A stretch of DNA of 22,998 bases. Source: a virus. The position numbers and the translations under genes are program-made. The stretch covers positions 1-22,998 of the IMG/VR virus record IMGVR_UViG_3300031586_000023, one strand, 5' to 3'. Positions 8,461-22,583 of the stretch are shown piece by piece. The notes beneath the pieces are model-generated. The model was not told the DNA's origin, made no database searches, and saw only the letters and a program-made list of their open reading frames with translations. The number at the start of each line of letters is the position of its first letter. Position 1 is the stretch's first letter.

Positions 8461-8482
8461 GGATTTTGAAAGAGATTATTGG

Positions 8483-8510
8483 CCACAGAGGACAGAGAGA
8501 GTATAGAGAA
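8483..8510 (+). repeat. 7-base-period array (NNACAGA-type)
   Basis: Four consecutive heptads: CCACAGA, GGACAGA, GAGAGTA, TAGAGAA, with a fifth weak heptad filling the space exactly to the GTG at 8518. It is one of at least ten intergenic arrays in this window with the same period but different unit sequence. Confidence 0.55.
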
Positions 8511-8515
8511 AATTA

Positions 8516-9547
8516 GTGTGGGTAATACCAAAGAATTTAGGTGTCTCAGCCTGTGTACGGGATACGCTGGAATCGAGCTGGGGCTTAAACGAGCTATCCC
8601 TGCTCTGCGAACGATCGCTTACGTGGAGATCGAAGCCTTCGCCTGCGCGAACCTGGTTGCGAAGATTGAAGCGAATCTCTTGGATGCAGCACCTGTCTGG
8701 ACGGATATTAAGACCTTCCCTGCACGATATTTTCGCAATCGGGTACACATCATCACTGCCGGTTATCCCTGCCAGCCGTTCAGTTGTGCGGGAAAACGAA
8801 AAGGAACGGACGACCCTCGATACCTTTGGCCGCATATTGAGCGAATCATCAAAACAATTAAGCCTATTTGGTTCTTCGGGGAAAATGTCATGGGACATAT
8901 TAAATACGGCTTCGCTGATGTTTATCGAAGCTTACGAAAAATGGGTTATTCGGTTGAGGCGGGATTATTTAGCGCGGCAGAGTGCGGTGCGCCCCATCTT
9001 AGACGCAGATTATTCTTTCTGGCCCACAATACAAATTGCAGATTCAAAACAATGTCGATGCAACAAGAGGGGCAATCCGCATCTGGGGACAGCAGTTCAA
9101 AACTGGCCGACACCGAAAATACCGACAGGCGGAGCAGAGAAAAGGCAGAGCAGAGCGAAACGAGGAAGCGGCGGAGAAGATTTGGCAGCGGCGATACAGA
9201 ATGCTATTGGCCTGCCGCATTTGGACAGCAACAATATGAGTGGGAAGAGCCCAGGGTTATGGATGACACCCGAGGCAAAAAACGAGCAAGGTTATCAAAT
9301 AGCCAGAGGCAAAAAATATCCAAGACTGGGAACACAGGCGCGATTTGCAACACCCACTTGCCCGGGGAAAAGAGGAACAGCGGGCGGACAAAAAAGAAAC
9401 TTGTTGAAAGATCTAAAATGCCGAACCCGCCAATTAAACCCCGATTGGGTAGAGCAACTAATGGGACTCCCTGTAGGATGGACAGATTGCAATTACTCGG
9501 TAACGGTGTCGTGCCGCAGCAGGCGGAAAAGGCGTTCAGGGAATTGA
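8516..9547 (+). other. second open frame overlapping the methyltransferase, protein-like from 9017 to 9487
   Basis: In the +1 frame relative to the methyltransferase the DNA is open for 343 codons. Its second half (9017-9487) is not random: it has WPT, WPTP, WMTP and FATP motifs at intervals, then LNPDWVEQLMGLPVGWTD, a pattern I know from C-termini of many phage cytosine methyltransferases. The same DNA gives LADT-type motifs in the main frame, since CTGGCCGACACC reads L-A-D-T or, shifted by one, W-P-T-P (9103-9115). No ribosome site specific to this frame is evident. Independent expression, programmed frameshifting or a record of past frame switching are all possible. Confidence 0.4.
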
Positions 9548-9564
9548 TGAGGCTGTTTGAATGA
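8518..9564 (+). CDS. C5 DNA cytosine methyltransferase
   Basis: A 348-residue enzyme that would transfer a methyl group from S-adenosylmethionine to carbon 5 of cytosine. Motif I LSLCTGYAGIELGL (10-23) binds the cofactor; motif IV GYPCQPFS holds catalytic C85; motif VI is GENV (121-124); motif VIII is APHLRRRLFFLA (158-169); motif X is LGNGVVPQQA near the end (327-336). The segment between VIII and X (170-325) is hydrophilic and arginine-rich with LADT at 196-199 and WPAAFG...YEWEEPR, as in phage enzymes of this type. No ATG is available; GTG 8518 is preferred since a heptamer array precedes it, while TTG 8479 would add 13 residues. Likely protects phage DNA from restriction. A second frame is open across the whole gene. 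Confidence 0.9.
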   Translation: MGNTKEFRCLSLCTGYAGIELGLKRAIPALRTIAYVEIEAFACANLVAKIEANLLDAAPVWTDIKTFPARYFRNRVHIITAGYPCQPFSCAGKRKGTDDPRYLWPHIERIIKTIKPIWFFGENVMGHIKYGFADVYRSLRKMGYSVEAGLFSAAECGAPHLRRRLFFLAHNTNCRFKTMSMQQEGQSASGDSSSKLADTENTDRRSREKAEQSETRKRRRRFGSGDTECYWPAAFGQQQYEWEEPRVMDDTRGKKRARLSNSQRQKISKTGNTGAICNTHLPGEKRNSGRTKKKLVERSKMPNPPIKPRLGRATNGTPCRMDRLQLLGNGVVPQQAEKAFRELMRLFE

Positions 9565-9570
9565 AAAGTA

Positions 9571-9617
9571 TTCGATATTCGATGTTCGATGTTCGATACT
9601 TGATGTTCGATATTCGA
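9571..9617 (+). repeat. TTCGATR heptamer array, locus 1
   Basis: Nearly seven consecutive heptads of TTCGATR with one degenerate copy (CTTGATG) begin seven bases after the methyltransferase stop. A 33-codon frame runs through it from an ATG at 9561, but its peptide is simply the translated repeat and I do not treat it as a gene. The same unit recurs at 20772-20810 and 22542-22583. Confidence 0.8.
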
Positions 9618-9620
9618 AAC

Positions 9621-9648
9621 AAAATGCGAAAATCAAAAATCAAAATGC
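9621..9648 (+). repeat. A-rich heptamer array
   Basis: Four heptads, two AAAATGC copies flanking GAAAATC and AAAAATC, directly follow the TTCGATR array and stop six bases before the ATG at 9655. Same period, different unit from its neighbour. Confidence 0.6.
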
Positions 9649-9654
9649 GAGACC

Positions 9655-10194
9655 ATGAGTGAATCGGGAATGAAAACTGATACCGTCATCCATTGTGAGC
9701 GGTGTGGAGCCCGTTGCAAAGTGGATGGGCCGCGAAACCCAGAGGCAAAGATGCTACGTCTGTCTAAAGGGCCCAAAGGTCTGTGCATAAACTGTGCCGT
9801 TCACGATTGGTTGAGAAATACTTATCCGGTTAATATGCTTCTAGCGGAATCCGGACCGAAGATACTGGCCTGTCCGCATATACAAAAGCAATTTACGGAA
9901 ATAATGCAAGTCGGGCTGGCTGAGGCGCAGCCAAATGAAATCAATTGGGACTTAATTATCGAAAATTGGGATTTGCCGTTCCCGCACAAGGTGAAGCCGA
10001 GCGCGATTAATCCATGTACGCAGCGGGTAATGGATGAGATAGCGGCTGGGAATCGCCCGGGCCTCGGTAGCGCGGCCCCGCCAAAGCCTGACCCGCTGGC
10101 TGGTAAGATGACGATTACGAGTTTTGAGGAATTGAACTTGCTGGAGCCGGGTTTGGGTGACGACTTAAAATCAGCACTTGAGGGCAACAGATGA
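9655..10194 (+). CDS. phage protein with N-terminal zinc ribbon
   Basis: A 179-residue protein. The N-terminal 50 residues hold C14, C17 (HCERCG), C21, C44 and C47 (LCINC), a treble-clef or zinc-ribbon-like arrangement of two CxxC knuckles. The rest is mixed, with a proline-rich stretch around 140-150 (SAAPPKPDP) and an acidic C-terminus. No Shine-Dalgarno sequence precedes ATG 9655, which directly follows a heptamer array; a second ATG five codons on has TCGGGA before it and could be the true start. The stop overlaps the next gene by four bases (ATGA). I recognise the general style of small zinc proteins in phage accessory regions, but not a function. Confidence 0.65.
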   Translation: MSESGMKTDTVIHCERCGARCKVDGPRNPEAKMLRLSKGPKGLCINCAVHDWLRNTYPVNMLLAESGPKILACPHIQKQFTEIMQVGLAEAQPNEINWDLIIENWDLPFPHKVKPSAINPCTQRVMDEIAAGNRPGLGSAAPPKPDPLAGKMTITSFEELNLLEPGLGDDLKSALEGNR

Positions 10195-10475
10195 GTGAAT
10201 GTAAGCGATGCGGTCAGTGCTGCCGGACATTGTGGGCTCAAATTACACGGCGGGACATCAGGCGAGAGCCGAAATTGCAGCAGTACGCAAACGAGGCAGA
10301 TCGGGACTGGTGGCTGCTGCCGACGCCGTGCCCGTTCCTGACTGAGGAAGGACTGTGCTCGATCTATAAAACACGGCCTACAGAATGCAGGGGCTTCGAG
10401 GCCGGTGTAGATGAGAGATGTTATATGAAGAAAGCAAGGGAAATGGGCGTGTTTAACCCTGTAACTATACGGTAG
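10191..10475 (+). CDS. YkgJ-type cysteine-cluster protein
   Basis: A 94-residue protein with C4, C7, C10 and C11 at the N-terminus (CKRCGQCC), then TPCPFLTEEGLCSIYKTRPTEC with C47, C56 and C66, and C77 near the end. This is the pattern of the YkgJ family of putative zinc- or iron-chelating proteins, whose biochemical role is not established. It is shorter than many chromosomal members and lacks extra domains. The ATG overlaps the stop of the preceding zinc-ribbon gene, so the two metal-binding proteins are translationally coupled. Confidence 0.8.
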   Translation: MSECKRCGQCCRTLWAQITRRDIRREPKLQQYANEADRDWWLLPTPCPFLTEEGLCSIYKTRPTECRGFEAGVDERCYMKKAREMGVFNPVTIR

Positions 10476-10553
10476 TTTCGATGCGGAATTGTCAATGGAC
10501 TTGGCCATCCCTTACGGGACTGTAAGATAAAAAATGAAGGAGATATTAATTGA

Positions 10554-10775
10554 ATGAAGGTTGTGCTGCAAGATAAAGATTCTGGCGGAACAAAGGTGCT
10601 GGTCAGTGATTCGAAATGCTGCCCATTCTGTACACTCGTTCCCGACGGCAGGATTCGCTGTCAGCTTACTTTAGCCGGACCAGGCCCGAACGACGGGACG
10701 TGCCCGTGCGATGATACGCTCCCGGATGATTGCCCGCTGCTGAAAGGGCCGGTTTTAGTGAAAAAAGTGAGGTGA
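10554..10775 (+). CDS. small cysteine-rich protein
   Basis: A 73-residue protein with seven cysteines: KCCPFC (22, 23, 26), C36, CPC (50, 52) and C60. It resembles a small zinc-binding module with a beta hairpin between the knuckles (DGRIRCQL). AAGGAG lies about 11 bases before the ATG, slightly far but usable. The stop lies three bases from the next start. This is the third consecutive cysteine-rich protein in the region. I do not recognise a named family. Confidence 0.6.
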   Translation: MKVVLQDKDSGGTKVLVSDSKCCPFCTLVPDGRIRCQLTLAGPGPNDGTCPCDDTLPDDCPLLKGPVLVKKVR

Positions 10776-10778
10776 AAA

Positions 10779-11006
10779 ATGAAAAAATTCCATGTACATG
10801 TTTACGAAATAGCTCGAAAAATGGAAGTAGATGTCGATGCAAAAACTGAAGTTGATGCGAAAACACACGCACTTCGATTAGCAAAAGAAAATGCATTAGC
10901 TACAGTAAAGAGTGATTGTAAATTTATATCATTATCGTTTGAAATGGACGAAAAAGGCAATGGCTCTACTACAGGCCCAACCGAAGATAAAACAGTTCAG
11001 GCTTAG
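10779..11006 (+). CDS. small protein, possibly DpnD/PcfM-like
   Basis: A 75-residue protein opening with a beta strand (KKFHVHVYEIARKMEVDVDA), a helix (DAKTHALRLAKENAL) and another strand (CKFISLSFEMD), ending in a hydrophilic tail. This strand-helix-strand layout with an alternating N-terminal strand resembles the small DpnD/PcfM-like phage and plasmid proteins, whose function is not firmly known. GTGAGGTGA precedes the ATG and the gene follows the cysteine-rich gene by three bases, so they share a transcript. The family link is tentative. Confidence 0.55.
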   Translation: MKKFHVHVYEIARKMEVDVDAKTEVDAKTHALRLAKENALATVKSDCKFISLSFEMDEKGNGSTTGPTEDKTVQA

Positions 11007-11066
11007 TGAGCTGAAACTAGCGGAGTATAACAGATGATGAATCAAAAACAGAAAGGAGTGAAAAAA

Positions 11067-11567
11067 ATGGTTTACAAATGGAAATTTCAGCCGAAAGGCA
11101 ATGTAAGCGCCCAAGTGGCGGGTGAGTGCATCGAGCAGATCGCCAAAAAGAACAGAGGGGCGATAACAGCGAAAGCAATTGTTAAAGAGGCGAAAGCCCA
11201 AAGATCGCCCCTGCACAATCTCTTCGAATGGGACGATACGGTGGCAGCAAAGAATTACCGCGAAGAACAGGCCCGACAAATCCTCGTCCAACTCGTAATC
11301 GTTCAAAAAGGCAAAAAGGATAAAGAACTATTGCGAGTAAGAGCATTTGTTTCGGTGGAAGAAAAGAGAGACATTCATTACACGCCGTTCGAAAGGGCAA
11401 TGTCGAAACCACATTTGAGACAACAACTTCTCCAGCAGGCCTTGTCAGAAATAAATACCTGGCGGGAAAAATATAGAGAATTAGAAGAGCTTTCTGGAAT
11501 TTTTGATGCGATTGCAAAGGTGACGACCAAACAGAAAAAGAGAATATTACGCCGAAAGGCCGGTTAA
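11067..11567 (+). CDS. conserved phage protein of unknown function
   Basis: A 166-residue protein. I chose ATG 11067 because AAAGGAG precedes it by eight bases; an ATG at 11034 would add 11 residues that mostly encode that ribosome site. The sequence features (AQVAGECIEQIA near the start, SPLHNLFEWDDTVAAKNYREEQARQIL in the middle, HLRQQLLQQAL and FDAI at the end) match a widespread phage family I remember from accessory and replication regions of siphoviruses, without known biochemistry. The central LHNLFEWDD segment is the family hallmark. The C-terminus is helical and ends in a basic tail. A large pentamer repeat array follows immediately. Confidence 0.7.
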   Translation: MVYKWKFQPKGNVSAQVAGECIEQIAKKNRGAITAKAIVKEAKAQRSPLHNLFEWDDTVAAKNYREEQARQILVQLVIVQKGKKDKELLRVRAFVSVEEKRDIHYTPFERAMSKPHLRQQLLQQALSEINTWREKYRELEELSGIFDAIAKVTTKQKKRILRRKAG

Positions 11568-11575
11568 AAAAAATG

Positions 11576-11870
11576 ATACGGCGGGGTATGGTGCGGCGCA
11601 GTATGGTGAGTTGGGATATGGTCGGGCAAGGCAGGTAAGGTTTGGCCGGGCAGGTTTCGGTAAGGTTGGACGAGGTTGGATAGCATGGTTCGGCTTGGCA
11701 GGTAAACTTTGGTGGGGCTGGGTGTGTTGAGGCCCGGCATGATATGTTGTGGTGAGGCAGGTGAAGTCAGGCGCGGCGGGGCAGGATGCGGCGGGGCAGG
11801 ATGCGGCGTGGCGGAGCACGGTTTGGTGCGGTACGGTATGGCCCGGCGCGGCAGGCAAAATAAGGCTTGG
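11576..11870 (+). repeat. degenerate GGYNN pentamer array, about 58 units
   Basis: The whole 342-base gap between two phage genes is dominated by a strict 5-base period in which GG or GGT/GGC recurs every five bases while the remaining positions vary. The phase holds over long runs (for example 11701-11760 and 11821-11855) with one slip near 11685. A perfect 15-base tandem duplication (GCGGCGGGGCAGGAT) occurs at 11773-11802. The + strand is strongly G-rich. No gene is credible here: the open minus-strand frame only translates the repeat. Confidence 0.85.
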
Positions 11871-11909
11871 ATTGAATATTAAACCCGAATAAGAGAAAGG
11901 ATAAAAAAA

Positions 11910-12494
11910 ATGACTAAGATGAAAAAGGTAGAGCAGATAATTGAACTGCCAAGGATAGATGTCAAGTTAATGACTTTGAGGCTCGAAGGCGATTCACCTT
12001 TAATTTGTCATGCTTGGAGCGATAAGGCAAAACGAGTGATGTTGGACAAACAAATGAAAAAGGCAAGGCAGATGAAAAAGGCAAAGGACCCGAAGCAGGA
12101 TTTTAAGAATTCACTCTATCCGCACCACGACGGGGGCTATGGATTCCCGGCAGTTGCGTTCAAGGCGGCGGCGGTAAATAGTTGCACATTTTTAGATGGC
12201 GTTACAAAGGTGCTGGCTCGTGGGGCATTTCATGTTGTCGGAGAGCTTGTCAAGATAGAAGGATCCAGGCCCACACCGCGGGAGGACATGGTACGGATAG
12301 CGATGGGGACGGCCGATATTCGGTATCGCGGTGAATTTCGAAAGTGGTCGGTCAGGCTGCAAATACGATATAACGCCAGTGTTATCTCTCCCGAACAGAT
12401 TACCAATTTATTCAATACGGCCGGATTTGCAATAGGCGTGGGCGAATGGAGGCCGCAAAAAGGCGGCTCTTTCGGGATGTTCCATGTAGCATAG
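11910..12494 (+). CDS. conserved phage protein of unknown function
   Basis: A 194-residue protein. Characteristic segments are SPLICHAWSDKAKRVMLDKQMKKA (split over residues 30-55), a basic KAKDPKQDF helix, YGFPAVAFKAAAVNSC, and the C-terminal GFAIGVGEWRPQKGGSFGMF. I recognise this as a protein found in many tailed phages, often near recombination and packaging genes, with no experimentally known role as far as I know. The mixed alpha/beta pattern with a conserved glycine-rich end suggests an RNA- or DNA-binding beta fold, which is speculative. AGAAAGGATAAAAAAA precedes the ATG. It follows the pentamer array and precedes the small terminase. Confidence 0.75.
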   Translation: MTKMKKVEQIIELPRIDVKLMTLRLEGDSPLICHAWSDKAKRVMLDKQMKKARQMKKAKDPKQDFKNSLYPHHDGGYGFPAVAFKAAAVNSCTFLDGVTKVLARGAFHVVGELVKIEGSRPTPREDMVRIAMGTADIRYRGEFRKWSVRLQIRYNASVISPEQITNLFNTAGFAIGVGEWRPQKGGSFGMFHVA

Positions 12495-12531
12495 TTAATA
12501 TTCACTAACGACTAACAAGGCATGGACGCCT

Positions 12532-13071
12532 ATGTCTAAGATAACAGAAGTCAGAAGTCAGAAGTCAGAAGTAAAGAAAATCCACAAGCGCAAGCGAAGT
12601 GGGGGTAAAAGCGCTGCCGAGATTGCCGAAGCTGAAATCATCGAGACTCAGGCAGAAGCGGCAAAGTTTATCGGCAAGAGTACGAGGACGGTCCGCAGGT
12701 GGGAACGCGAGGGGATGTTGGTAGCGACCCAAAACGGCCGTAAGGTCTATATCCGCAGCCAGCTCAAACTGTTCTCCGAGCACGAAGGCAAACAGCCGAC
12801 CAAGGCAAGAAGCCGGCGAGATGAGGGTGAAGCGGACTTCAAAGAAATCAGGGCAAAACTGGCGAAATTAGAACTTGAAAAAGAGCTGGGACAGCTCGTC
12901 AATCGCGAGGAGTTCGAAAAAAAGAATATCAAAAAAATTCTCGCCATCAAAAGTGGAATATTCCTGCTGGTCCGCACAATAGTTTCGGCATTACCTGCAG
13001 AGCATAGGCTGCATATAAAAAAATTAGCTGAAAAAGAGGCAAGAACTTTAATCGAGGGTTTTAGTCGGTAA
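12532..13071 (+). CDS. terminase small subunit, Nu1-like
   Basis: A 179-residue protein. Residues about 38-82 form a MerR-like winged helix (TQAEAAKFIGKSTRTVRRWEREG, then a short wing RKVYIRS), as in lambda Nu1, which recognises the packaging site on phage DNA. A coiled-coil region follows (FKEIRAKLAKLELEKELGQLVNREEFEK, 103-130) and a helical C-terminus that would bind the large subunit. The large terminase gene starts 29 bases downstream, supporting the call. The first residues after MSKI are encoded by a TCAGAAG heptamer array, giving a repetitive SEVRSQKSEV-like N-terminus that is probably not functional. No good ribosome site precedes ATG 12532. Confidence 0.8.
   Translation: MSKITEVRSQKSEVKKIHKRKRSGGKSAAEIAEAEIIETQAEAAKFIGKSTRTVRRWEREGMLVATQNGRKVYIRSQLKLFSEHEGKQPTKARSRRDEGEADFKEIRAKLAKLELEKELGQLVNREEFEKKNIKKILAIKSGIFLLVRTIVSALPAEHRLHIKKLAEKEARTLIEGFSR
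12544..12571 (+). repeat. TCAGAAG heptamer array inside the TerS N-terminus
   Basis: Four consecutive heptads, WCAGAAG, start 12 bases after the TerS ATG, so this array is translated. Same period as the other intergenic arrays, with its own unit. Confidence 0.75.
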
Positions 13072-13074
13072 ATA

Positions 13075-13109
13075 GATGGACGTTGGATGACGGACGATAA
13101 ATGACGAAG
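13075..13109 (+). repeat. GAYGGAY heptamer array across the TerL start
   Basis: Five heptads (GATGGAC, GTTGGAT, GACGGAC, GATAAAT, GACGAAG) fill the gap between TerS and TerL and run through the TerL start codon at 13101. No Shine-Dalgarno sequence is present. Confidence 0.6.
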
Positions 13110-15062
13110 TCAGGGACGACAATCTGGTCGAAAGCCGAGCGAGAGGCGTGGAAACTGCCGGAAGATATTACGGTCAGCCAGTGGGCGGTAAAGAACAGGG
13201 TGTTGCCGGCAAGCAGCCCTTTCCCGGGGCTATATAGATTGAACCTGACGCCTTATATGGCAGGACCGCAGGATGCGTTCTGCGACGATGAGGTCGAAGA
13301 AATAGATTTGATGTTCCCTGCGCAGGTAAGCAAATCATGCTCAGCACAAAATATGATAGGTTACATTGTTGACCAGTGCCCGGGCGAGACCTTCTATGTG
13401 GTGCCGAGGGAAAAAGATGTTGATTATGTGACAGAAAAAGTTTTCAAGCCGATGGTGGAACTGTCGGAGGCCCTTTCACGGCATATATCCGGCAGCCCGA
13501 GAGACCTGCAGGGGACACATTTCGACTTTGACCGAATGACGTTGTATTTCGGCTGGGCGGGCAGCCCTGCTGAAATGGCGGCAAGATATATCAAAAATCT
13601 TTTTTTCGACGAGCCGGACAAATACCCGCCGTTCGCAGGCCGTGAGGCAAATCCGATCGACCTTGCAATCAAGAGAACAACGACGTTCTGGGACAGGAAA
13701 ATTGTAAAACTTTCAACACCGACAATAAAAGAAAATTATATATACAGCTCTTATAACAACTCCAATATGCAAAAATTTTATATACCATGTCCCCACTGCG
13801 GTCAATACAGCACGTGGCCGTTTGTCCAGCTCAAGATACACCCTAACCTGCGGGATCCGGAAGAGATTATAAAAAAAGGAACAGGATGTGTATGGTACGA
13901 ATGCGAATATTGCGCAGCTAAAATTGAGGAATTACAGAGAGGCGAACTTGTTGCAAAAGGTCTTTGGCTGCCAAAGGGACAAACAATAGATGAGGACGGC
14001 AATATACACGGGACACCCTTACGCAGTAAGCGGCACAGCGGCTTTAACGCCCCCGCCTGGATAGCTCCGTTCGAAGGGGTGAGCTGGCCGAGGATTATGG
14101 CCAAATGGTTCCGGGCCAATACCGAAGAGGGAATCGCCTTAGGTGAATTGCTTGATTTTAAGAATGCTATCGAAGGAGTGCCGTTCGAGGAAGCGGGAAA
14201 GAAATTAAAGACGAGCGAGCTGCGGAAATTAAAGGGCGGATTTTCGCAGGGGACCATGCCAGCCGATTGTGTTACTTTAGTGGCATCGGCTGATTATCAC
14301 AAATCAAAAACGCGCGGAATCGTTCGCATCGATTACGAAGTCAGAGGATTCGGATATGGTCTGAAAAATTACGTTATCACCAGCGGCTCGGCATCATCGT
14401 TCGAGCAACTTGATAAAGAAGTACTGCTCAGTCCCTTTCCATGGGAGGACGGGACGCCAAACGAAAAAAAGCCCTGGCTTGCGGTGATTTGCCTGTTCGT
14501 TGATTCTGGATACGAGCCGGATGATGTTTATGAATACTGCCGGCAGCGGCCGGGACTGACAATCCCGACCAAGGGTGAGACCGGCCCGTGCCTGAAACCG
14601 CTGCGCCCATCGGAACTGGAATCCGCCACCGAGAGACGATTGACACGCAGACAGCGAATCAGGTACCGGGGGATGCAACTTCTAATAGTCGATACCTACT
14701 TTTTCAAGAACCAGGTGATGAGCTGGGCGGAGCCGCGACTTGATGAAAACGGCAAAGTCATCGCGGAACCATTAACGCTGTTCTACAACGAAATTCCGCA
14801 TTACTACCTTACCGAATTCTCCAATGAAAAGAAGGTTAAGGTCCGCGATACAAAAGGCAACGTCAAATGGGTATGGAAACCAATAAGCCCCGGTGCGCCG
14901 ACGCACTCGCTGGATACGGCGGTCCTTGCAGCGGCAGCCGGGTTCTATAAGGGCGTGCATTACCTGAGACGGCCGGGAGAGAAAAGAACGGCACCGGCGG
15001 CGGCGGGACAAAGAAAGAAAATAAAACTATCGGAATTACAGAGGCAAAAACGAATGAGATAA
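13101..15062 (+). CDS. terminase large subunit, GpA-like
   Basis: A 653-residue lambda gpA-type packaging motor and nuclease. The N-terminal ATPase has AQVSKSCSAQN (75-84) in the position of Walker A, as in the deviant gpA loop, and NLFFDEPDK (166-174) as Walker B with D170 E171. Two cysteine pairs, C230/C233 (CPHCG) and C268/C271 (CEYC), form a zinc knuckle typical of this family. The C-terminal nuclease has acidic residues in SADYH (D398), FVDSG (D468) and HSLDTAV near the end. It cuts concatemeric DNA and pumps it into the prohead. The length is normal. Translation starts inside a heptamer array without a Shine-Dalgarno sequence. Confidence 0.93.
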   Translation: MTKSGTTIWSKAEREAWKLPEDITVSQWAVKNRVLPASSPFPGLYRLNLTPYMAGPQDAFCDDEVEEIDLMFPAQVSKSCSAQNMIGYIVDQCPGETFYVVPREKDVDYVTEKVFKPMVELSEALSRHISGSPRDLQGTHFDFDRMTLYFGWAGSPAEMAARYIKNLFFDEPDKYPPFAGREANPIDLAIKRTTTFWDRKIVKLSTPTIKENYIYSSYNNSNMQKFYIPCPHCGQYSTWPFVQLKIHPNLRDPEEIIKKGTGCVWYECEYCAAKIEELQRGELVAKGLWLPKGQTIDEDGNIHGTPLRSKRHSGFNAPAWIAPFEGVSWPRIMAKWFRANTEEGIALGELLDFKNAIEGVPFEEAGKKLKTSELRKLKGGFSQGTMPADCVTLVASADYHKSKTRGIVRIDYEVRGFGYGLKNYVITSGSASSFEQLDKEVLLSPFPWEDGTPNEKKPWLAVICLFVDSGYEPDDVYEYCRQRPGLTIPTKGETGPCLKPLRPSELESATERRLTRRQRIRYRGMQLLIVDTYFFKNQVMSWAEPRLDENGKVIAEPLTLFYNEIPHYYLTEFSNEKKVKVRDTKGNVKWVWKPISPGAPTHSLDTAVLAAAAGFYKGVHYLRRPGEKRTAPAAAGQRKKIKLSELQRQKRMR

Positions 15063-15075
15063 GGAGATATTAAAA

Positions 15076-15812: not shown

Positions 15813-15813
15813 G

Positions 15814-15883
15814 AAAAGTTCAAAAATTAAAGTGCAAAAGGCAAAATTACAGTGTAAAATTCAAAAATTGAAAAATGAAAAAG
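15814..15883 (+). repeat. A-rich heptamer array
   Basis: About ten heptads of the type CAAAANN (CAAAAAT, TAAAGTG, CAAAAGG, CAAAATT, and so on) fill the DNA after the zinc-ribbon gene and run into the start of a small frame at 15875. Low complexity makes the exact borders uncertain, but the 7-base spacing of the A-runs is regular. Confidence 0.5.
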
Positions 15884-16015
15884 AAAAAAAGTAAAAAATC
15901 ATTGAGAAAACAAGGCCGCTATACAGGTAAAGAGCTTACGCTAAACGGGCAGCGAATTAATGGTGTTATATGTTTTTCAGTAAAAGGTAAAATATTAAAT
16001 CAGCGAAATCGCTAA
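15875..16015 (+). CDS. possible 46-residue basic protein
   Basis: A short frame with a lysine/serine-rich start (MKKKKSKKSLRKQGRY) followed by a less repetitive stretch (KELTLNGQRINGVICFSVKGKIL). The second part looks like a small beta hairpin and is not explained by the repeat. There is no ribosome binding site, and the start lies inside an A-rich heptamer array. It could be a small nucleic-acid-binding protein in the ClpP cassette; it could also be fortuitous. Confidence 0.35.
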   Translation: MKKKKSKKSLRKQGRYTGKELTLNGQRINGVICFSVKGKILNQRNR

Positions 16016-16027
16016 AAAAACTTTCCT

Positions 16028-16068
16028 ATATATAGACCATAATCAAAAAAAAGGTCTATATGTAGACC
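16028..16068. other. TAGACC inverted and direct repeats with A8 tract
   Basis: ATATAGACC (16030-16038) is reverse-complemented by GGTCTATAT (16053-16061), and GGTCTA/TAGACC (16053-16068) form a second, tighter dyad. An A8 tract lies between the repeats. Read on the minus strand the tighter dyad is a 6-bp hairpin followed by eight T, resembling a weak intrinsic terminator, although no minus-strand gene is visible. It may instead be a protein-binding site. Confidence 0.45.
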
Positions 16069-16132
16069 GCCCACTCCAAAATTCAATTTTTGCCGTTGAC
16101 AATTCTCGGTAATTGGCCGAAATTCCCTATAG

Positions 16133-16195
16133 ACAACAAGAAGGCGGCTGTGTGGGAGCCCACACCTTCCACAGCAGCCGCCTTTTTTGTTGTTA
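16133..16195 (+). terminator. strong intrinsic terminator after the ClpP cassette
   Basis: AAGGCGGCTG (16141-16150) pairs perfectly with CAGCCGCCTT (16175-16184), extended inward by TGTGG/CCACA with a one-base bulge and outward by ACAAC/GTTGT. A run of six T (16183-16188) ends the stem. This is a convincing Rho-independent terminator on the + strand, sitting 46 bases before the gpW-like gene in what would otherwise be a continuous late operon. Confidence 0.75.
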
Positions 16196-16202
16196 CCTGA
16201 CA

Positions 16203-16237
16203 GAGGCGAGAAACGAGGCACGAGCGGCGAGAGACGA
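16203..16237 (+). repeat. GNNRCGA heptamer array before the gpW-like gene
   Basis: Five heptads ending in CGA (GAGGCGA, GAAACGA, GGCACGA, GCGGCGA, GAGACGA) lie between the terminator and the ATG at 16242, four bases from the start codon. Confidence 0.6.
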
Positions 16238-16241
16238 AACT

Positions 16242-16457
16242 ATGGCTAATTACACGGCAATCATAACGGCAATCGACGAGGCAATATTAAACTGGGCGGG
16301 CGAACCTGTCACACTCTCGGAATCCGGACGGTCAGTGACATACCGCAGCCTCAATTCACTGCTCGATGCGCGAAGATATTACGCCAAACTGCAGCTGCAA
16401 ATCAATAACAAAAAGCCGTTTCGAATAACACACTTGAAGGCAGGGGGGGCGAGATGA
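16242..16457 (+). CDS. gpW-like head completion protein
   Basis: A 71-residue protein with two helices (YTAIITAIDEAILNW and LNSLLDARRYYAKLQLQI) separated by a beta hairpin (VTLSESGRSVTYRS), the layout of lambda gpW, which plugs and joins the filled head to the tail. Its place immediately before the portal gene is the same as in lambda (A-W-B). A longer in-frame extension exists upstream, but it would read through the terminator hairpin, so ATG 16242 is preferred. No Shine-Dalgarno sequence is present; a heptamer array ends four bases before the start. Confidence 0.75.
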   Translation: MANYTAIITAIDEAILNWAGEPVTLSESGRSVTYRSLNSLLDARRYYAKLQLQINNKKPFRITHLKAGGAR

Positions 16458-16464
16458 GAAACAG

Positions 16465-16492
16465 GTTAAAAGTAAAAAGTTAAAAGTAAAAA
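16465..16492 (+). repeat. GTWAAAA heptamer array before the portal gene
   Basis: Four alternating heptads GTTAAAA and GTAAAAA end three bases before the portal ATG at 16496. No ribosome binding site is recognisable in between. Confidence 0.65.
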
Positions 16493-16495
16493 CTA

Positions 16496-18253
16496 ATGAA
16501 GATTTTTGGTTTGACAATAAGAAGAGACAAGAAACAGCGAATGACGGTAAGTAATCTGCCGAGACAAAGGGTTCGCTCATACGATGCGGCCGCAATTAAT
16601 CGACACACTGAAAACCACTGGCTCTATGCAACTGCAAGTGATGCGGATTCTTTAATCCGGCAGGACCTGCCGACACTTAGAAACCGTGCACACTATGAGG
16701 TCCGCAACAATTCGTACGCCGAAGGAATTATCGATACGCTTGTGAATGAGCTTATCGGGACAGGCTCGGACCTGCAATTTCTAAGCGGCGAGGGAGAGGA
16801 CGCCGACAACGAGGTCGAGGAAAAATTCTATCTCTGGATGCAGAAATGCGACATCGAAGGCAGAATGACATTCGGGGACATTCAGCAGCTTACAGGCGCC
16901 CGGCAACAGGCCGAATCCGGAGAAGGATTAATTGTTTTAGTAAATACCAAACCGAAAAGGCAATGGGTACGGGCAAGGCCCGAGCCGACGCTTCGTTTGA
17001 GGGTAATCGAGCCGGAACGGCTGGGGACACCTATGGGTCTTATGCCAACGGGGCAAACATTCAGCGAGAGATTAAGGGATGGTATCGAATATGATGAAGA
17101 TGGCAGACCTGAATTTTATTACATACTCAAACAGCATCCTGGCTCGGCATACAACTTAAGCACATTCGGAGAATACGATAAGGTACCAGTGTCGCATGTA
17201 ATACATCTTTACCGAATAAAAAGGGCGGAACAATCACGCGGGGTGCCCTGGGTGACACCGGCACTGCCGCTGTTTGCGCAGCTTCGCAGGTTCACCCTTG
17301 CAACAATACAGGGGGCCGAAACCGCGGCCAATATATCGGGTGCGCTCGAGACCGAGCCATTAGCAGAACCCGAGGAGATAGATGTTGGAGACGAGGTCGA
17401 GATTCCCCGCAATGCCCTGCTTACACTACCCGCCGGCAGTAAGATGAATCAAATCAAGCCGGAACACCCGGCGACAACTTATGAGATGTTCAAGAACGAA
17501 ATTATCAACGAAATTGCAAGACCTGTTAGTATGCCGTTTAATATCGCCGCAGCAAATTCATCGAGATATAACTATGCATCTGGCAGACTTGACCATCAAA
17601 GCTTTGATAAATTCAAACGTGTCGTGCGTGGATGGATCGAGCAGCATCTTAATAACCGTGTGTTTTTTGCATGGCTGAGGGAGGCGACACTGATACCCGG
17701 CTACTTCAAACACTTCAAAGGCAAAAATATCGAAACAATCATACTTCAGTGGAACTGGCCCGGCAGCGAGCATGTGGACCCGTATAAAGAGGCAAGGGGA
17801 CAGGAAATTCGGCTTAAAAATCTTACAACCAATCTAAAGGCCGAATATGCAGCACAGGGCAAGGACTGGGAGCCGGAAATCAAACAACGAGTCAAAGAGA
17901 TAGAACTCTGCAAAGAGCTGGGAATACTCGATGATGAGAATGTAAAGAAGGTTATGGAGGACATCGCACGGGCAGCCAGGGCGGGAGTGCCTATCGGGGT
18001 ATCGGAGGCCCGGACTTCGATCGGCCTGCCGGAGAAGCCGCCGAACGATAAGCTGCTGCGGTTCAACGACCAGGATGTCCTGCAATGCCATATCGAAAAC
18101 GGGGTCCTTTTGATAAATGAGGTAAGGGCAGTGCTCGGCCTGCCGCCAGTGCCGTGGGGTGACAAGCCTGTCAGAAAAACGGGCGTCAAGCCGGTAACAA
18201 TAAAAGGCGGTGAAAACGAAGAGGAAAAAGAAGATGAAACGGACATCAAATAA
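16496..18253 (+). CDS. portal protein, lambda gpB family
   Basis: A 585-residue portal protein, the dodecameric ring at one head vertex through which DNA passes. Family features include an N-terminal LRNRAHYEVRNNSYAEGII segment, ELIGTGSDLQF, a central stem region (IHLYRIKRAEQSRGVPW), PVSMPFNIAAANSSRYNYASGRLDHQSF and a C-terminal helical crown region. The length is close to lambda gpB. It follows gpW and precedes the protease-capsid gene, matching the lambda-type order. The last 20 bases overlap the next gene. The acidic tail (GGENEEEKEDE) is a common feature. It begins directly after a heptamer array without a visible Shine-Dalgarno sequence. Confidence 0.92.
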   Translation: MKIFGLTIRRDKKQRMTVSNLPRQRVRSYDAAAINRHTENHWLYATASDADSLIRQDLPTLRNRAHYEVRNNSYAEGIIDTLVNELIGTGSDLQFLSGEGEDADNEVEEKFYLWMQKCDIEGRMTFGDIQQLTGARQQAESGEGLIVLVNTKPKRQWVRARPEPTLRLRVIEPERLGTPMGLMPTGQTFSERLRDGIEYDEDGRPEFYYILKQHPGSAYNLSTFGEYDKVPVSHVIHLYRIKRAEQSRGVPWVTPALPLFAQLRRFTLATIQGAETAANISGALETEPLAEPEEIDVGDEVEIPRNALLTLPAGSKMNQIKPEHPATTYEMFKNEIINEIARPVSMPFNIAAANSSRYNYASGRLDHQSFDKFKRVVRGWIEQHLNNRVFFAWLREATLIPGYFKHFKGKNIETIILQWNWPGSEHVDPYKEARGQEIRLKNLTTNLKAEYAAQGKDWEPEIKQRVKEIELCKELGILDDENVKKVMEDIARAARAGVPIGVSEARTSIGLPEKPPNDKLLRFNDQDVLQCHIENGVLLINEVRAVLGLPPVPWGDKPVRKTGVKPVTIKGGENEEEKEDETDIK

Positions 18254-20771
18254 TTTGACTGAAAGACCGTATCCGAATTTCCATAGCTGTCGTCTGGAAG
18301 ATCCGAATAAATATCCAGAAAAAACATACGGAAAATGCGATCAGAAACATAATGGCAAGTGCATCGATGTTGTTTACGGCATAAGGAAAGACGGCAAAAG
18401 CGAGATACAGGCACTTCGATTCGATAAGAAAATCTGGACAGAATCCGATGCACGGACGGTATGCAAGGACAGAGGCGGGACATTCGAAGCGTCAAAGAAA
18501 GAAGAACAAAAACAACAAAGTAGCGAAAAGACCGTCTATCAATGTGAATGTATAGAGTGCGGGTACAAAGAAACAAGCACCACGCATTGTAACGACCTGA
18601 AGTGCCCCAAATGCGGGGGGCGGATGAGAAGGGTTGAAAGACCCGGGCCCGGGCAAAAAGCCGCTCCGGTCAGTTCCGGATCGGCTCCGGTCGAAGGATT
18701 AATACAAAGAAGCGAGCTTACTACACGGACCTACCAGGTCCGGTTCGATACGCTCGATGAAAAGACGCGTTCGATAGAGGCGGTGATCGCCACAGAGAAC
18801 CCGGTCCTTGTTATAGACTGGAACCGATGGGAAATTATCGAGGAAGTTCTGCTGATGAGCGGCTTTCGGGCACCGGCAAACGGGCAAGTTCCCCTGCTCG
18901 ATACCCACGACCGCTCGACGATACAGAAACAACTCGGCAGCACACGCCAGCTTCATACCGAAGGCGATAAACTCATCGGGCGAAATTTCTTCAGCAGCTC
19001 CCCGGAGGCCGAACATGCGTGGACTCTGACAAAAGAGGGACATCTTACGGACAATTCGGCGGGTTATCGCGTAATCAATTCGGTAATAATCCCAAGGGGC
19101 GAACAGGCAACGGTAGAAGGCCGGCCGTTCAAGGCGTCGGCAACGAGAGACCTACGAATATCGACCGAATGGATGCATGGAGAAACCAGCGTCTGCCCGA
19201 TAGGAGCTGATGAAGATGCAAAGAACAGGAATAAACAAAATGTTTCAACAGAAAGGAATAATATTATGGACCCAAAATTCAAAGAATGGCTAATCGCAAG
19301 AGGGGAGAATCCGGAGACCCTCGACGAAAAGAAACGGGCGGAGCTGGAGGCCGAATATAAAGCCGAGCAGCAGCGAAGCGAGAATGAACCGTCTGCAAAG
19401 CCGGATAAAAAAGACGGTCAGCGAACCGACCCGATTATCAACGACCCGCCGACCGATACGAGGGCAATCGCCGAAGAGGCGGTCAGGGCCGAGAGAGACA
19501 GGGTCGAGACAATCAGGACACTCGGCGGAGAGGATGTGCCAGCGGAAGTAATCGAGACCTGCATAAGGGAAGGTAAAACAATCGAGCAGACAAAGAGCGA
19601 TGTCTTAGATGCTGTCCGCAAAAACAGGCCCAAGGTCTCGCCGAACATTGAGGTCACCAGCGAAATCAACCGCGAGGTGCTCGAGGATGCGATGTTGCTC
19701 CGGGCCGGAAGTAATGACGTTATCCTCGAAGATAAGAAAAAAGGCGAACAGCGGGCAGAGGCGGCAAAGAGGTTCCGTGATATGAGCCTGTTAGATGTAT
19801 GCAGGCAGGCCCTTGTTTTCGCAGGACAGGCGATCCCGATGGGACGCGAAGAGGTCATAAGGGCGGCGTTCTCGACGATGGAGCTGCCGATTATACTCGG
19901 CAATATTGCCAAGAAAAGCCTGCTCAAGGGCTATAATAGCGTGCCGGCGACGTGGCGAAAATGGTGCTCGGTGGATTCCGTTTCGGACTTCAAGGAGGTC
20001 ACCGGCGCACGGCTTACCGACACGGGTGAGCTTGAACAGGTAGGCAACAGCGGCGAGGTCAAATACGGAGCTGCAACGGAAGAGTACGAGAAATACAGCG
20101 TTGCAACATATGCCAAGAACTTCGGCGTCACGAGACAGAACATCATAAACGACGACCTTCGCGTATTGACCAAGGTCCCGCAGGCAATGGGCGCCCGGGC
20201 GAGCAGAAAGGCCGGAGACCTTGTCTATGCACACCTTATGCTGAACGGCGCTATGACAGACACCGTAGCATTGTTCCACGCCACACATCTCAATCTCAAT
20301 ACCACCGCTACGCTTGCCAAGGACAAACTGGCCGCCGCCATTGTGGCATTTATGAAACAGGTTGACAAGGACGACCAGCCCATCAACGTCGAGCCGAGAA
20401 TATTACTCGTGCCGCCTGAGCTGAGATTTACCGCATCGGAGCTGGTCAAGAGCGCAACCATCGTGATTACCGGTACCTCTGATGTCGTAAGGCCAACTTA
20501 CAACGCTATAAGCGATATGAATATCGAAGTAGTCACCGAGGCAAGATTGAGCAATGCCACTTATACCGGTTATTCGGCCACAAGCTGGTATATGACAGGA
20601 GACCCGAACATCGTCGATACGATCGTGGTGGCGTTCCTCAACGGCAGGCAGGAGCCGACGCTCGAGCAGTTCAACGCCGGCCCGAACGTGATGGGTATTA
20701 TTTACCGCATATTCACCGACGTCGGCTGCAAGTCGCTCGATTTCCGCGGGATGCAAAAGAACACGACGTAA
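18234..20771 (+). CDS. prohead protease-major capsid protein fusion
   Basis: An 845-residue multidomain protein. Residues 15-90 form a cysteine-bearing phage domain (CRLEDP, then LRFDKKIWTESDARTVCKDRGGTFEA). A zinc ribbon follows (C104, C106, C109, C119, C124, C127). Residues 155-325 are a herpesvirus/HK97-type prohead protease with H225 in LLDTHDRS and S275 in DNSAGYRV as likely catalytic residues. A charged scaffold-like helical region (345-480) leads to a Mu gpT-like major capsid domain (480-845), including LFHATHLNLNT. The protease should cut itself and the scaffold from the capsid protein during assembly. I prefer ATG 18234 (GAGG upstream) over GTG 18210. An internal start with its own ribosome site lies at 19266. 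Confidence 0.85.
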   Translation: MKRTSNNLTERPYPNFHSCRLEDPNKYPEKTYGKCDQKHNGKCIDVVYGIRKDGKSEIQALRFDKKIWTESDARTVCKDRGGTFEASKKEEQKQQSSEKTVYQCECIECGYKETSTTHCNDLKCPKCGGRMRRVERPGPGQKAAPVSSGSAPVEGLIQRSELTTRTYQVRFDTLDEKTRSIEAVIATENPVLVIDWNRWEIIEEVLLMSGFRAPANGQVPLLDTHDRSTIQKQLGSTRQLHTEGDKLIGRNFFSSSPEAEHAWTLTKEGHLTDNSAGYRVINSVIIPRGEQATVEGRPFKASATRDLRISTEWMHGETSVCPIGADEDAKNRNKQNVSTERNNIMDPKFKEWLIARGENPETLDEKKRAELEAEYKAEQQRSENEPSAKPDKKDGQRTDPIINDPPTDTRAIAEEAVRAERDRVETIRTLGGEDVPAEVIETCIREGKTIEQTKSDVLDAVRKNRPKVSPNIEVTSEINREVLEDAMLLRAGSNDVILEDKKKGEQRAEAAKRFRDMSLLDVCRQALVFAGQAIPMGREEVIRAAFSTMELPIILGNIAKKSLLKGYNSVPATWRKWCSVDSVSDFKEVTGARLTDTGELEQVGNSGEVKYGAATEEYEKYSVATYAKNFGVTRQNIINDDLRVLTKVPQAMGARASRKAGDLVYAHLMLNGAMTDTVALFHATHLNLNTTATLAKDKLAAAIVAFMKQVDKDDQPINVEPRILLVPPELRFTASELVKSATIVITGTSDVVRPTYNAISDMNIEVVTEARLSNATYTGYSATSWYMTGDPNIVDTIVVAFLNGRQEPTLEQFNAGPNVMGIIYRIFTDVGCKSLDFRGMQKNTT
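19252..19268 (+). promoter_or_regulatory. internal ribosome binding site and start for scaffold-capsid protein
   Basis: AAAGGA at 19252-19257 lies eight bases before an in-frame ATG at 19266 inside the protease-capsid gene. The residues before it (KNRNKQNVSTERNN) look like translated intergenic DNA, and the product beginning MDPKFKEWLIARGE resembles a natural N-terminus. Initiation here would give a 501-residue scaffold plus capsid protein without protease, analogous in principle to nested genes in lambda (C/Nu3) and Mu (I/Z). Confidence 0.6.
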
Positions 20772-20810
20772 TTCGATAATCGAAACTCGATATTGGATAT
20801 TCGATGTTCG
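20772..20810 (+). repeat. TTCGATR heptamer array, locus 2
   Basis: Five to six degenerate heptads related to TTCGATR (TTCGATA, ATCGAAA, CTCGATA, TTGGATA, TTCGATG) begin one base after the stop of the capsid gene. Same unit as 9571-9617 and 22542-22583. Confidence 0.7.
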
Positions 20811-20853
20811 TCAATAGTGAATGAATGAAGGCTTTTAATTGAAAGGTTTACAA

Positions 20854-21225
20854 ATGCTTAAAATTAAATGCTCCTGCGGACAGGAAAATGAGCTTGTCGA
20901 ATCCCCTGAAGGCCTGCGCTACGATATCAATAAGCATGGCAACGGTGAACTATGTAATGACCAATGCTTTAACTGCCGTGCATCCTTAGGACTTGAACCT
21001 GAGCCGGAGCCGGAAGCTGTCAAGAAGCCAACTGAAGAAGCGGCTGATGAAACGGTCGATGAAACAACTGATGATGGACTGAACCAGATGAATAGAGACC
21101 AGTTACGGAAACGCGCTGAAAAATTAGGGATTGCAACGCCGATTATGATATCGAAGAAAGAACTGCGACAACTGATACGGGAATATCTGGCTACGGAGAA
21201 GGCCGAGACAGGCGAAGAGAGCTGA
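20854..21225 (+). CDS. small protein with cysteine cluster and SAP/Rho-N-like C-terminus
   Basis: A 123-residue protein. The N-terminal part has CSCG (C6, C8) and CNDQCFNC (C34, C38, C41), a likely zinc site. The middle (47-75) is acidic and low in complexity (EPEPEPE). The C-terminal 40 residues (MNRDQLRKRAEKLGI, then SKKELRQLIREYLA) form a helix-extension-helix like SAP or Rho N-terminal domains, which bind nucleic acids or act as protein docking modules in phage head proteins. AAAGG lies seven bases before ATG 20854; an upstream TTG is less likely. It lies between the capsid and decoration genes, so a head-associated role is plausible. Confidence 0.65.
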   Translation: MLKIKCSCGQENELVESPEGLRYDINKHGNGELCNDQCFNCRASLGLEPEPEPEAVKKPTEEAADETVDETTDDGLNQMNRDQLRKRAEKLGIATPIMISKKELRQLIREYLATEKAETGEES

Positions 21226-21306
21226 GATTAGTTTTTTGATGGAGCAGTAGAAGTTTTACAGAATTGTAAAGAACAAAAAATCAACCTTTTTTAGAAAGGG
21301 TAAATT

Positions 21307-22092
21307 ATGAACACAGAAGGGCAGAATTATCAGGAAGGCGATTTTCTGGATTATACACCAGGGGTTGCCAGGGCCGCGGGCGAGATCGTCCAGGTGGGCG
21401 GTCAGGCCGGTATGTGCGCCACTGCCATAGCAGCAAGCACACTCGGAGAGGCCCAGGTCAAGGGTGTTGTTAAAGTCAGGGCCGCTGCGGTCACCGGAAG
21501 CGATGGGGACATCGTCGGATGGGACGAGGATGGTGACCCGTACGGTGGGACGGCAGGGACGGGTGCCGCGACAACGAAATTGTCGGACGCTGATTTCCTG
21601 ATCGGCTCGCTGGGGGCCGCCCTGACGGCAACGGACGGTGAGGCCATAGTGGAGCTGAACAACTTCGGGCACGTGAACAAAAAGTTGGTAAAACTGACGG
21701 CCGCCCAGATCAAGCTGCTGGCGACGACACAGCAAGAGCTGATACCCGCACCAGGAGCGGACAAGGTCATTCAGGTGCTCGGCATTCAGATGATGCTGGA
21801 TTACGGCTCGGAAGTTCTGGTAGAGCCGTCGGCGCCCGATGATCTTGAAGTCGTCTATGATGCGGCTGGCGGGACCTCGATTGCCGATGTTATAGGCGAC
21901 TTCATCATAAGCGCCGCCGATACTATCGCCCAGCCTCAGATAAAGGACATCGCAGGTGCGGCGGCGACAACAATGGTCAATAAAGCGGTAGTGCTCGACA
22001 ATACAGACGCCAACTACACCGGCAATGCAACGGGCGATACGGTACTTATCGTGATATGCACCTATCTGATTCACAGGGTAGAGCTGGCTTAA
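21307..22092 (+). CDS. capsid decoration protein, DUF2190-like
   Basis: A 261-residue protein. Residues 8-115 match the DUF2190 style of small capsid-associated proteins (EGDFLDYTPGVARAAGEIVQVG, repeated VKGVVKVRAAA strands), which stabilise the outside of phage heads in characterised members. The second half (125-261) is a different beta-rich domain with VKLTAAQIKLLATTQQELIP, APGADKVIQVLGI and NKAVVLDN, a pattern I know from other phage virion proteins. The two are apparently fused here. AGAAAGGG precedes the ATG. The position after the major capsid gene fits a decoration role; copy number and site on the virion are unknown. Confidence 0.75.
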   Translation: MNTEGQNYQEGDFLDYTPGVARAAGEIVQVGGQAGMCATAIAASTLGEAQVKGVVKVRAAAVTGSDGDIVGWDEDGDPYGGTAGTGAATTKLSDADFLIGSLGAALTATDGEAIVELNNFGHVNKKLVKLTAAQIKLLATTQQELIPAPGADKVIQVLGIQMMLDYGSEVLVEPSAPDDLEVVYDAAGGTSIADVIGDFIISAADTIAQPQIKDIAGAAATTMVNKAVVLDNTDANYTGNATGDTVLIVICTYLIHRVELA

Positions 22093-22131
22093 TAAACAAA
22101 CGGCACTTTCACTGACACTGATTCAGTTAAC

Positions 22132-22162
22132 GGGCGGCGGTCTGATACCGAAGCCGCCGCCC
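22132..22162 (+). other. GC-rich hairpin before the head-tail joining gene
   Basis: GGGCGGCGG (22132-22140) pairs perfectly with CCGCCGCCC (22154-22162) around a 13-base loop. Only ATTT follows, so it is a weak terminator at best. AAGGAG of the next gene lies five bases after the stem, so the hairpin may tune that gene's translation or expression relative to the decoration protein. Confidence 0.6.
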
Positions 22163-22177
22163 ATTTAAGGAGCTGTT

Positions 22178-22540
22178 ATGACCAGCACTTTTGAAGGACA
22201 TATGAAAAAGGCAAATGAAGCATTGCTCGATGAGTTTGGCAAGCAGATTAGCTATATACCTAAAGATGGTGAGGCATCGACAGTCATTGCAAGTATTGGA
22301 CCGGAAGATGTTATCAGAGAAGATAATGAGCAAGGAGGGATGCAGATTAAGACCCGCAATATTGTCATTCCTTTAGCTGAAGTTTCTGCACCGGCGATTG
22401 ATGATATTGTAACCATTGAAGAAGAAGACTGGATTGTAACGGGAATTATCAATATTAATTCTGGTATAGCTGAGCTTCAGTGCAGGTGGAATAAAGCGCA
22501 GAGCAAGCATCATGAGATGCATAAGACTCGTGCTACATAG
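22178..22540 (+). CDS. head-tail joining protein-like
   Basis: A 120-residue protein with an N-terminal helix (MKKANEALLDEFGKQISYIP) followed by a small beta barrel: VIASIGPEDV, QIKTRNIVIPLAEVSAPAIDDIVTIEEEDWIVTGII and IAELQCRW. This helix-plus-barrel layout, with the 'D.V.I....W.V' strand pair, is shared by phage head-tail adaptors such as lambda gpFII-like and Gifsy-type proteins that seal the connector for tail attachment. AAGGAG lies six bases before the ATG. The position downstream of the decoration gene agrees with this role. Sequence identity to characterised members appears low, so the call rests on pattern and context. Confidence 0.6.
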   Translation: MTSTFEGHMKKANEALLDEFGKQISYIPKDGEASTVIASIGPEDVIREDNEQGGMQIKTRNIVIPLAEVSAPAIDDIVTIEEEDWIVTGIININSGIAELQCRWNKAQSKHHEMHKTRAT

Positions 22541-22541
22541 A

Positions 22542-22583
22542 GTCGATATTAGATTTTCGATGTTCGATTTTCGGTGTTCGATG
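22542..22583 (+). repeat. TTCGATR heptamer array, locus 3
   Basis: Six heptads (GTCGATA, TTAGATT, TTCGATG, TTCGATT, TTCGGTG, TTCGATG) start directly after the stop of the head-tail joining gene. Same unit as the arrays at 9571 and 20772. Confidence 0.75.

Follow-up and report, generated by a model that had tools for sequence, protein, structure and literature searches.

Short heptanucleotide arrays of many different units in a viral record, its relatives and some Planctomycetota lineages

Introduction

What could produce tandem repeats whose unit is always seven bases long, while the sequence of the unit changes from one locus to the next? The question is raised by the IMG/VR viral record IMGVR_UViG_3300031586_000023 (G000), all 22,998 bases of which were analyzed here and are called the window. 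A preliminary description, made from the sequence alone, listed ten intergenic arrays with a strict seven-base period and differing units, and attributed them to a process that makes seven-base repeats whatever the sequence, or to a binding protein that measures seven bases. According to PMC4692102 (this and the other papers were available as excerpts, to which statements about them refer), heptameric repeats are over-represented in many bacteria and the reason for seven is an open question. We consider it moderately probable that the window arrays belong to a class of short, young, dispersed and selfish-like heptanucleotide-array elements, found in some Planctomycetota lineages and phages, which spread by copying.

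Results

A seven-base period in the window

Autocorrelation of the intergenic DNA, the check proposed in the preliminary description, peaked above dinucleotide shuffles at lags 7, 14 and 21 (z = 4.3, 5.4 and 4.2 respectively), with lags 20 and 19 elevated too (z = 4.2 and 3.0). When a period-5 region (11568-11909) was removed, lags 7, 14 and 21 had z values of 3.7, 3.3 and 4.9 under a Markov null, and every other lag from 3 to 24 stayed within |2.1|. Moreover, six lag-7 segments with a score of at least 11 were observed in the window versus 0.01 expected; among the other lags from 4 to 13, lag 8 yielded one such segment, lag 12 two and the remainder none. The first 8.4 kb, earlier described as free of arrays, contained no lag-7 segment even at a score of at least 9.

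The ten listed arrays differed in strength (Table 1). Five were strong alone (9571, 12544, 16465, 20772 and 22542); 9621-9648 leaned on its neighbor, its local p value of 0.001 being due to a context that takes in 9571-9617; two were marginal (15814 and 16203), one was weak (8483) and 13075-13109 was indistinguishable from chance. The period of seven stands, its strictness less so: the TTCGATR arrays include variant units and 14- and 21-base super-periods. Five arrays (9569, 15814, 16465, 20771 and 22543) start within 10 bases of an upstream stop codon, the stops ending at 9564, 15812, 16457, 20771 and 22540 respectively. An intergenic location, on the other hand, is not general: 12545-12572 lies in frame within the leader of a small-terminase-like (terS-like) open reading frame (ORF), 8483-8510 falls at the beginning of the ORF for the cytosine methylase, and the bacterial genes moeA and gcvT contain arrays as well (see below).

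Arrays at related phage loci

The window terminase has relatives encoded by seven viral loci (best segments 49-71% identical) and a single one in the genome collection, locus L003 of a Planctomycetota metagenome-assembled genome (MAG; best segment 66% identical); we infer that the host of the window is a member of this phylum. All seven viral loci and L003 have at least one lag-7 array at score 12, with units own to each (L007 and L010 carry identical arrays at identical coordinates). L003-L009 (78 kb) contained 16 lag-7 arrays, where 0.0 would be expected from first-order Markov sequences; no other lag from 4 to 13 had more than three. Thus period-7 arrays are present in related genomes, with other units and often in the same places, namely the terS leader and both sides of terL. 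The terS leader holds in-frame arrays of CAGAAGT in the window (p 0.0005 against single-base shuffles, as for the other leaders), ACGAGTC in L007 (p 0.0005) and an ACGCAAT-like unit in L009 (p 0.0015), and no array in L004 (p 0.56). Upstream (5') of terL, TGTTCRT was found in L003 and GTTGAAA in L005, and none in L004, L006, L007 and L009; downstream (3') of terL, ACGAAAT was found in L003, CAGAAGT in L004, ATTGATT in L008 and CAGAATA in L009, the window, L005, L006 and L007 being array-free there.

Unit diversity and recurrence in a wider viral sample

Of 35 IMG/VR stretches retrieved by an exact match to three TTCGATR units, 31 (272,876 bases) were kept after four near-duplicates had been dropped. 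They contained 118 lag-7 arrays, versus at most nine at any other lag from 4 to 13. A second set, found via CAGAAGT (33 stretches; 292,152 bases), contained 80, again versus at most nine. Because these sets (L082-L116 and L325-L357 respectively) and most stretches of genome G047 (see below) were found through a bait unit, non-bait arrays were counted apart: 41 with units unrelated to the bait in 13 of the 31 stretches, and 29 in 11 of the 33, where some non-bait units may be coding repeats. From 33 groups entered, with one unit per genome and the bait families excluded, 68 distinct units were obtained in 26 genomes or viruses. Many unrelated heptamers thus coexist with length seven alone in common, in other phages and bacterial genomes too, suggesting that something sets seven regardless of sequence; this much of the earlier proposal holds.

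An independent origin of each array, however, was not supported. Within a genome a single family is found at dozens of loci, and an irregular 24-base stretch of the GAACATC family gave 25 matches on 15 viral contigs, usually inside GATGAACATC...GAATGAA and with unrelated flanks. Recurrence of such an irregular sequence between unrelated flanks indicates that arrays were copied as pieces and not solely grown in place.

Patchy distribution in host-group genomes

Contrary to the idea that the mechanism belongs to the phage, host-group genomes carry period-7 arrays too. In G047 (23 stretches, 348 kb, many picked for CAGAAGT) 56 lag-7 arrays were found, whereas none of the other lags from 4 to 13 gave more than four; the 50 kb of E. 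coli K-12 examined were array-free. Each array-rich genome has its favored family: CAGARGA/CAGAAGT, with dozens of matches, in G047 and likewise in its sister G444, and AATAATC in G001. The G001 arrays have 14-base units amplified internally while their ends are plain, a signature of local homogenization; of the 136 distinct arrays that reach 42 bases or more, 14 had a value at lag 14 exceeding that at lag 7 by at least 0.05, so that super-periods are a minority. At L151, L152, L157 and other G001 loci, several MAG contigs start or stop within AATAATC arrays; it seems that short-read assembly is interrupted at such places, and the true number of arrays is probably higher than counted.

The distribution is patchy and not phylum-wide. 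In the order of G001, 3 of 59 genomes had three consecutive CAGAAGT units; in the phylum, with one mismatch tolerated, 8 of 392 genomes had TTCGATR arrays, versus 3 of 392 for a reversed control pattern. An order-wide property was likewise rejected, arrays being present in 3 of 14 readable genomes drawn without array bait, including G001, which was picked for its terminase. An "array-poor sample" (11 stretches, 160 kb, no arrays) was selected after arrays had been seen to be absent and is a description, not a test.

Birth of arrays and arrays inside genes

At six G047 array sites with both flanks spanned, all 21 relative sequences (from G441, G442, G443, G445 and, at one site, sister G444) were array-free; at two further sites no relative spans the gap, and the array at L170 19895 lay outside the comparison. 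The arrays of the G047/G444 genus are thus young. Resident bases were replaced, with no clear duplication of the target like that which accompanies the terminal inverted repeats of MITEs (nonautonomous transposons), although the relatives are ~75-93% identical and short duplications could be hidden. At L171 3438, as we read the sequences, a loss of ~20 bases took away the upstream gene's own stop codon, and the array provides a new end.

Arrays also enter protein genes. In a gene recognized as moeA by reading its protein sequence, both sisters carry an in-frame array in the same place: that of G047 consists of 91 bases of CAGAAGT plus an inverted arm, and that of G444, a sequence 94% identical in this region, of AATTTCA units. 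G441 (compared as DNA) and G442, G443 and G445 (compared as proteins) have a short loop alone and no array. At a second site both sisters carry the same family in differing lengths; none is present in G442 and G443, and G445 is cut off. In gcvT of G047 an array falls within the Pfam GCV_T match, and in L052 another falls within a Malectin match. At L167 6247-7836 and L177 4470-7304, in-frame arrays make up most of a predicted N-terminal, signal-peptide-like segment (e.g., SSVLCLLSSVLC); array DNA may here have turned into a secretion signal.

Inward pairs of arms in one genus

G047 and G444 contain 27 pairs of arms within 60 bases of each other and 18 single arms. All 27 pairs point inward (CAGARGN towards TCTGNCY) and none outward, with gaps of mostly 1-10 bases and with arm lengths and unit numbers differing from site to site. 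In every pair the arms are of opposite type, the seventh base being A in one and T in the other; the two orders occur 13 and 14 times, and such equal frequency fits an element inserted in either direction. Perfect palindromes are unstable; a mismatch in every seven-base unit would be what allows a near-palindrome of such length to persist. Simple fold-back copying of one arm from the other is unlikely, given one systematic base difference per unit in 27 of 27 pairs. With respect to coding direction, 13 of 13 composites at 3' ends lie one way, 8 of 9 at N-termini or within genes lie the opposite way and 5 of the 27 are unassigned; these counts are confounded, since an open array extends the gene call, and no weight is placed on them.

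Outside these, 15 inverted neighbor pairs (two being G047 sites again) were found, versus five direct and six unrelated; the left arm is identical in type in every GAACATC-family pair. In L116, L090 and L099 (IMGVR 3300012347_000612), inverted pairs of GAACATC, GATAGGA and GAGTTGA have in common a spacer that is rich in pyrimidines and contains CTCTTCC-like repeats, as though the layout of spacer and arms persisted while the unit changes. In L104, three consecutive junctions (12011-12090, 12576-12679 and 13081-13180) have GTTATTG...AATAAC inverted pairs with differing cores.

Discussion

A proposed explanation by copying, and its competitors

The occurrence of arrays in phage, host-group bacteria and enzyme genes suggests a copying or repair process working in sevens. 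Under the explanation that we prefer, an array would enter a new site by replacing ~20-100 bases, as seen at some host-group sites, and would be retained wherever the reading frame permits (at gene junctions, in protein leaders and in occasional loops). It would then be lengthened, shortened and homogenized in steps of one to three units, to judge from the 14- and 21-base super-periods. One or a few families would be copied to many loci per genome, with different favorites in different genomes, probably while DNA is repaired or replicated, through fold-back and template switching into arrays already present. The seven-base step may be the preferred slip or template length of an enzyme, and the phage genome may be exposed to the same process or may have received arrays from its host.

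Several observations weigh against this explanation: i) the units are diverse and their recurrence between genomes is modest, 75 of 2,176 cross-genome unit pairs lying within one mismatch versus 45.9 +/- 7.0 (maximum 68 in 200 runs) after letter permutation within units, which is only moderately above the expectation from composition; ii) blind stretches of the phylum (16 drawn, 15 readable and one masked) held four lag-7 arrays in 227 kb, with no excess over periods 9 and 12, and a phylum-wide property was rejected; iii) neither a transposase nor a target duplication nor a copying enzyme could be identified; iv) the window arrays are single-armed, with no inverted partner; v) there is no relative close enough (best terminase identity 71%) to show an empty site for the TTCGATR arrays; vi) the period-5 region in the same window means that seven is not the sole period.

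A bolder version, which we regard as possible and hold tentatively, sees the heptad arrays as selfish hairpin elements whose sequence is practically unrestricted. An enzyme with a seven-base step would make or copy them; they would spread to dozens of loci per genome as inward pairs whose arms, mismatched once per seven bases, escape destruction as perfect palindromes, would sit in frame in protein genes and would pass between bacteria and phages.

Pure local slippage, in which a seven-base polymerase slip duplicates any heptamer wherever this is tolerated and nothing is copied from one locus to another, is doubtful. It accords with a unit that varies by locus under a constant period, with the super-periods, with the TCAGAAA of the moeA outgroups (near one unit of the G047 array) and with the polymerase-size hypothesis stated in PMC4692102 and credited there to an earlier 2007 source. 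However, copying is needed for one unit family at dozens of loci per genome, for the irregular 24-mer common to 15 viral contigs and for the fixed two-arm structure of 27 of 27 composites. Nor does missing mismatch repair help: MutS_V was detected in 19 of 20 genomes (a test limited, like that for RVT_1 below, by MAG incompleteness) and went undetected only in G444, an array-rich but fragmented assembly, and loss of mismatch repair was rejected as the cause.

That the arrays are functional sites, bound by a protein or ribosome component and kept for control of translation or transcription as proposed for TAACTGA, is improbable. Several window arrays do occupy the interval from a stop codon to the following start, and TAACTGA repeats are mostly located just 5' of start codons (PMC4679880). 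Yet unit and presence vary among orthologous junctions of the relatives, weakening a regulatory role; arrays occur within enzymes; and one genome has many units. Likewise, nothing was found that points to the binding protein measuring seven bases of the preliminary description.

Telomerase-like synthesis is very improbable. Here a reverse transcriptase with an RNA template would add heptamers to broken ends that are later joined head to head, as could be done by an enzyme like DRT10, which produces tandem-repeat DNA with a unit set by its RNA (PMC12632851). The inward orientation of 27 of 27 composites is what one strand extended at both ends would yield. RVT_1, however, was detected in 9 of 20 genomes (the assemblies are not complete, and reverse transcriptases that are divergent may escape detection); it was undetected in 5 of 7 array-bearing genomes (G001, G008, G034, G444 and G428) and present in genomes with few or no arrays seen, leaving a common reverse transcriptase unsupported as a factor, and several units per genome would require several templates. 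Chance periodicity in AT-rich or low-complexity spacers, to which the four weak or non-significant arrays among the ten listed would conform, can practically be dismissed and is already refuted for the strong arrays by the observed-to-expected ratios in the window and its relatives and by the array-free E. coli sequence.

Comparison with known repeats and implications

The short tandem repeats (STRR) of cyanobacteria are heptameric arrays of variable length and sequence between related organisms. As in STRR-like heptanucleotide simple sequence repeats, over-represented seven-base units are joined head to tail here, but the noncoding location does not hold, several arrays being coding. The GGGAATC and GGGGAYT repeats of Xanthomonas and Nostoc are similarly heptameric and variable in length and sequence among related organisms; they are, however, single G-rich families examined as possible quadruplexes, and the excerpt of PMC4692102 describes no inward pairs of opposite arms. 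The TAACTGA repeats of Beggiatoaceae likewise have period 7, with one unit at many, mostly intergenic loci per genome, but that system has a single unit, related heptamers being rarely repeated, whereas many units and other positions are found here (PMC4679880). TAACTGA and its complement are absent from the window units, and TAACTGA is not among the 68 listed units.

The Rickettsia palindromic elements (RPE; PMC10969869) are also short and dispersed and add an in-frame peptide to unrelated protein genes, as the arrays do in moeA and gcvT of G047 and in the terS leader of the window. RPE are palindromic, as are the inward pairs of G047/G444 and unlike the window arrays. RPE families of ~150 bp have a conserved peptide, in contrast to variable-number heptamer arms with genome-specific units, and their carriers are Rickettsia and not Planctomycetota and phages. 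Borg tandem repeats (PMC9879509) resemble the arrays in being recent and fast-evolving and in lying in spacers and ORFs of an extrachromosomal element; they are perfect, have many unit lengths, are divisible by three in ORFs and are virtually absent from the host, whereas here the unit is seven even within ORFs and host-group genomes carry arrays. In the published cases excerpted, one or a few words occur per lineage; here there are dozens with only their length in common. No description of multi-unit heptad arrays, including heptanucleotide repeats in Planctomycetes, was found in the one literature library searched.

The arrays are datable by empty sites, and their birth replaces DNA and adds a predicted peptide to core enzymes; with strain-level genomes, slippage and copying become directly testable. 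Seven-residue repeat peptides occur in metagenome protein databases, and heptad arrays may account for them.

Features of the window

The window encodes a lambda-type terminase (GpA ATPase and nuclease), portal, Clp-type protease, capsid, ParB-like protein, integrase and cytosine methylase.

Table 1. Arrays and adjoining ORFs of the window (TRF, Tandem Repeats Finder)
Feature	Position	Strand	Remarks
Cytosine methylase ORF	8479-9564		Pfam DNA_methylase
Weak NNACAGA array	8483-8510	+	Start of cytosine methylase ORF; local p 0.040; better fit at lag 9 than at lag 7
TTCGATR array, 7 copies	9569-9617	+	14- and 21-base super-period; TRF scores 63, 70, 77 at periods 7, 14, 21; local p 0.001
AAAATCA/AAAATGC short array	9621-9648	+	Adjoins TTCGATR array; alone 2.4 copies of AAAATCA at 9629-9645
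Small-terminase-like (terS-like) ORF	12532-13071		
CAGAAGT array, 4 perfect copies	12545-12572	+	In frame, N-terminal leader of terS-like ORF; local p 0.001
Degenerate GAYGGAY stretch	13075-13109	+	terS-terL junction; local p 0.50, alone not above chance
A-rich CAAAANN stretch	15814-15899	+	Periods 7 and 8 mixed; local p 0.018; period 8 fits equally
Weak GNNRCGA stretch	16203-16237	+	Local p 0.015
GTTAAAA/GTAAAAA array	16465-16496	+	Immediately 5' of portal gene start; 14-base super-period 100%; local p 0.001
TTCGATR array	20771-20810	+	Starts at capsid ORF stop codon; local p 0.001
TTCGATR array	22543-22583	+	14-base super-period; local p 0.001

The period-5 region (11568-11909) is a G-rich spacer with a degenerate GGNNN pattern. 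Its identity at lags 5, 10, 15 and 20 is 0.48, 0.42, 0.47 and 0.43 respectively, and 30 of 64 GG dinucleotides are followed by another at +5; in Markov sequences the mean was 12 and the maximum in 500 was 33.

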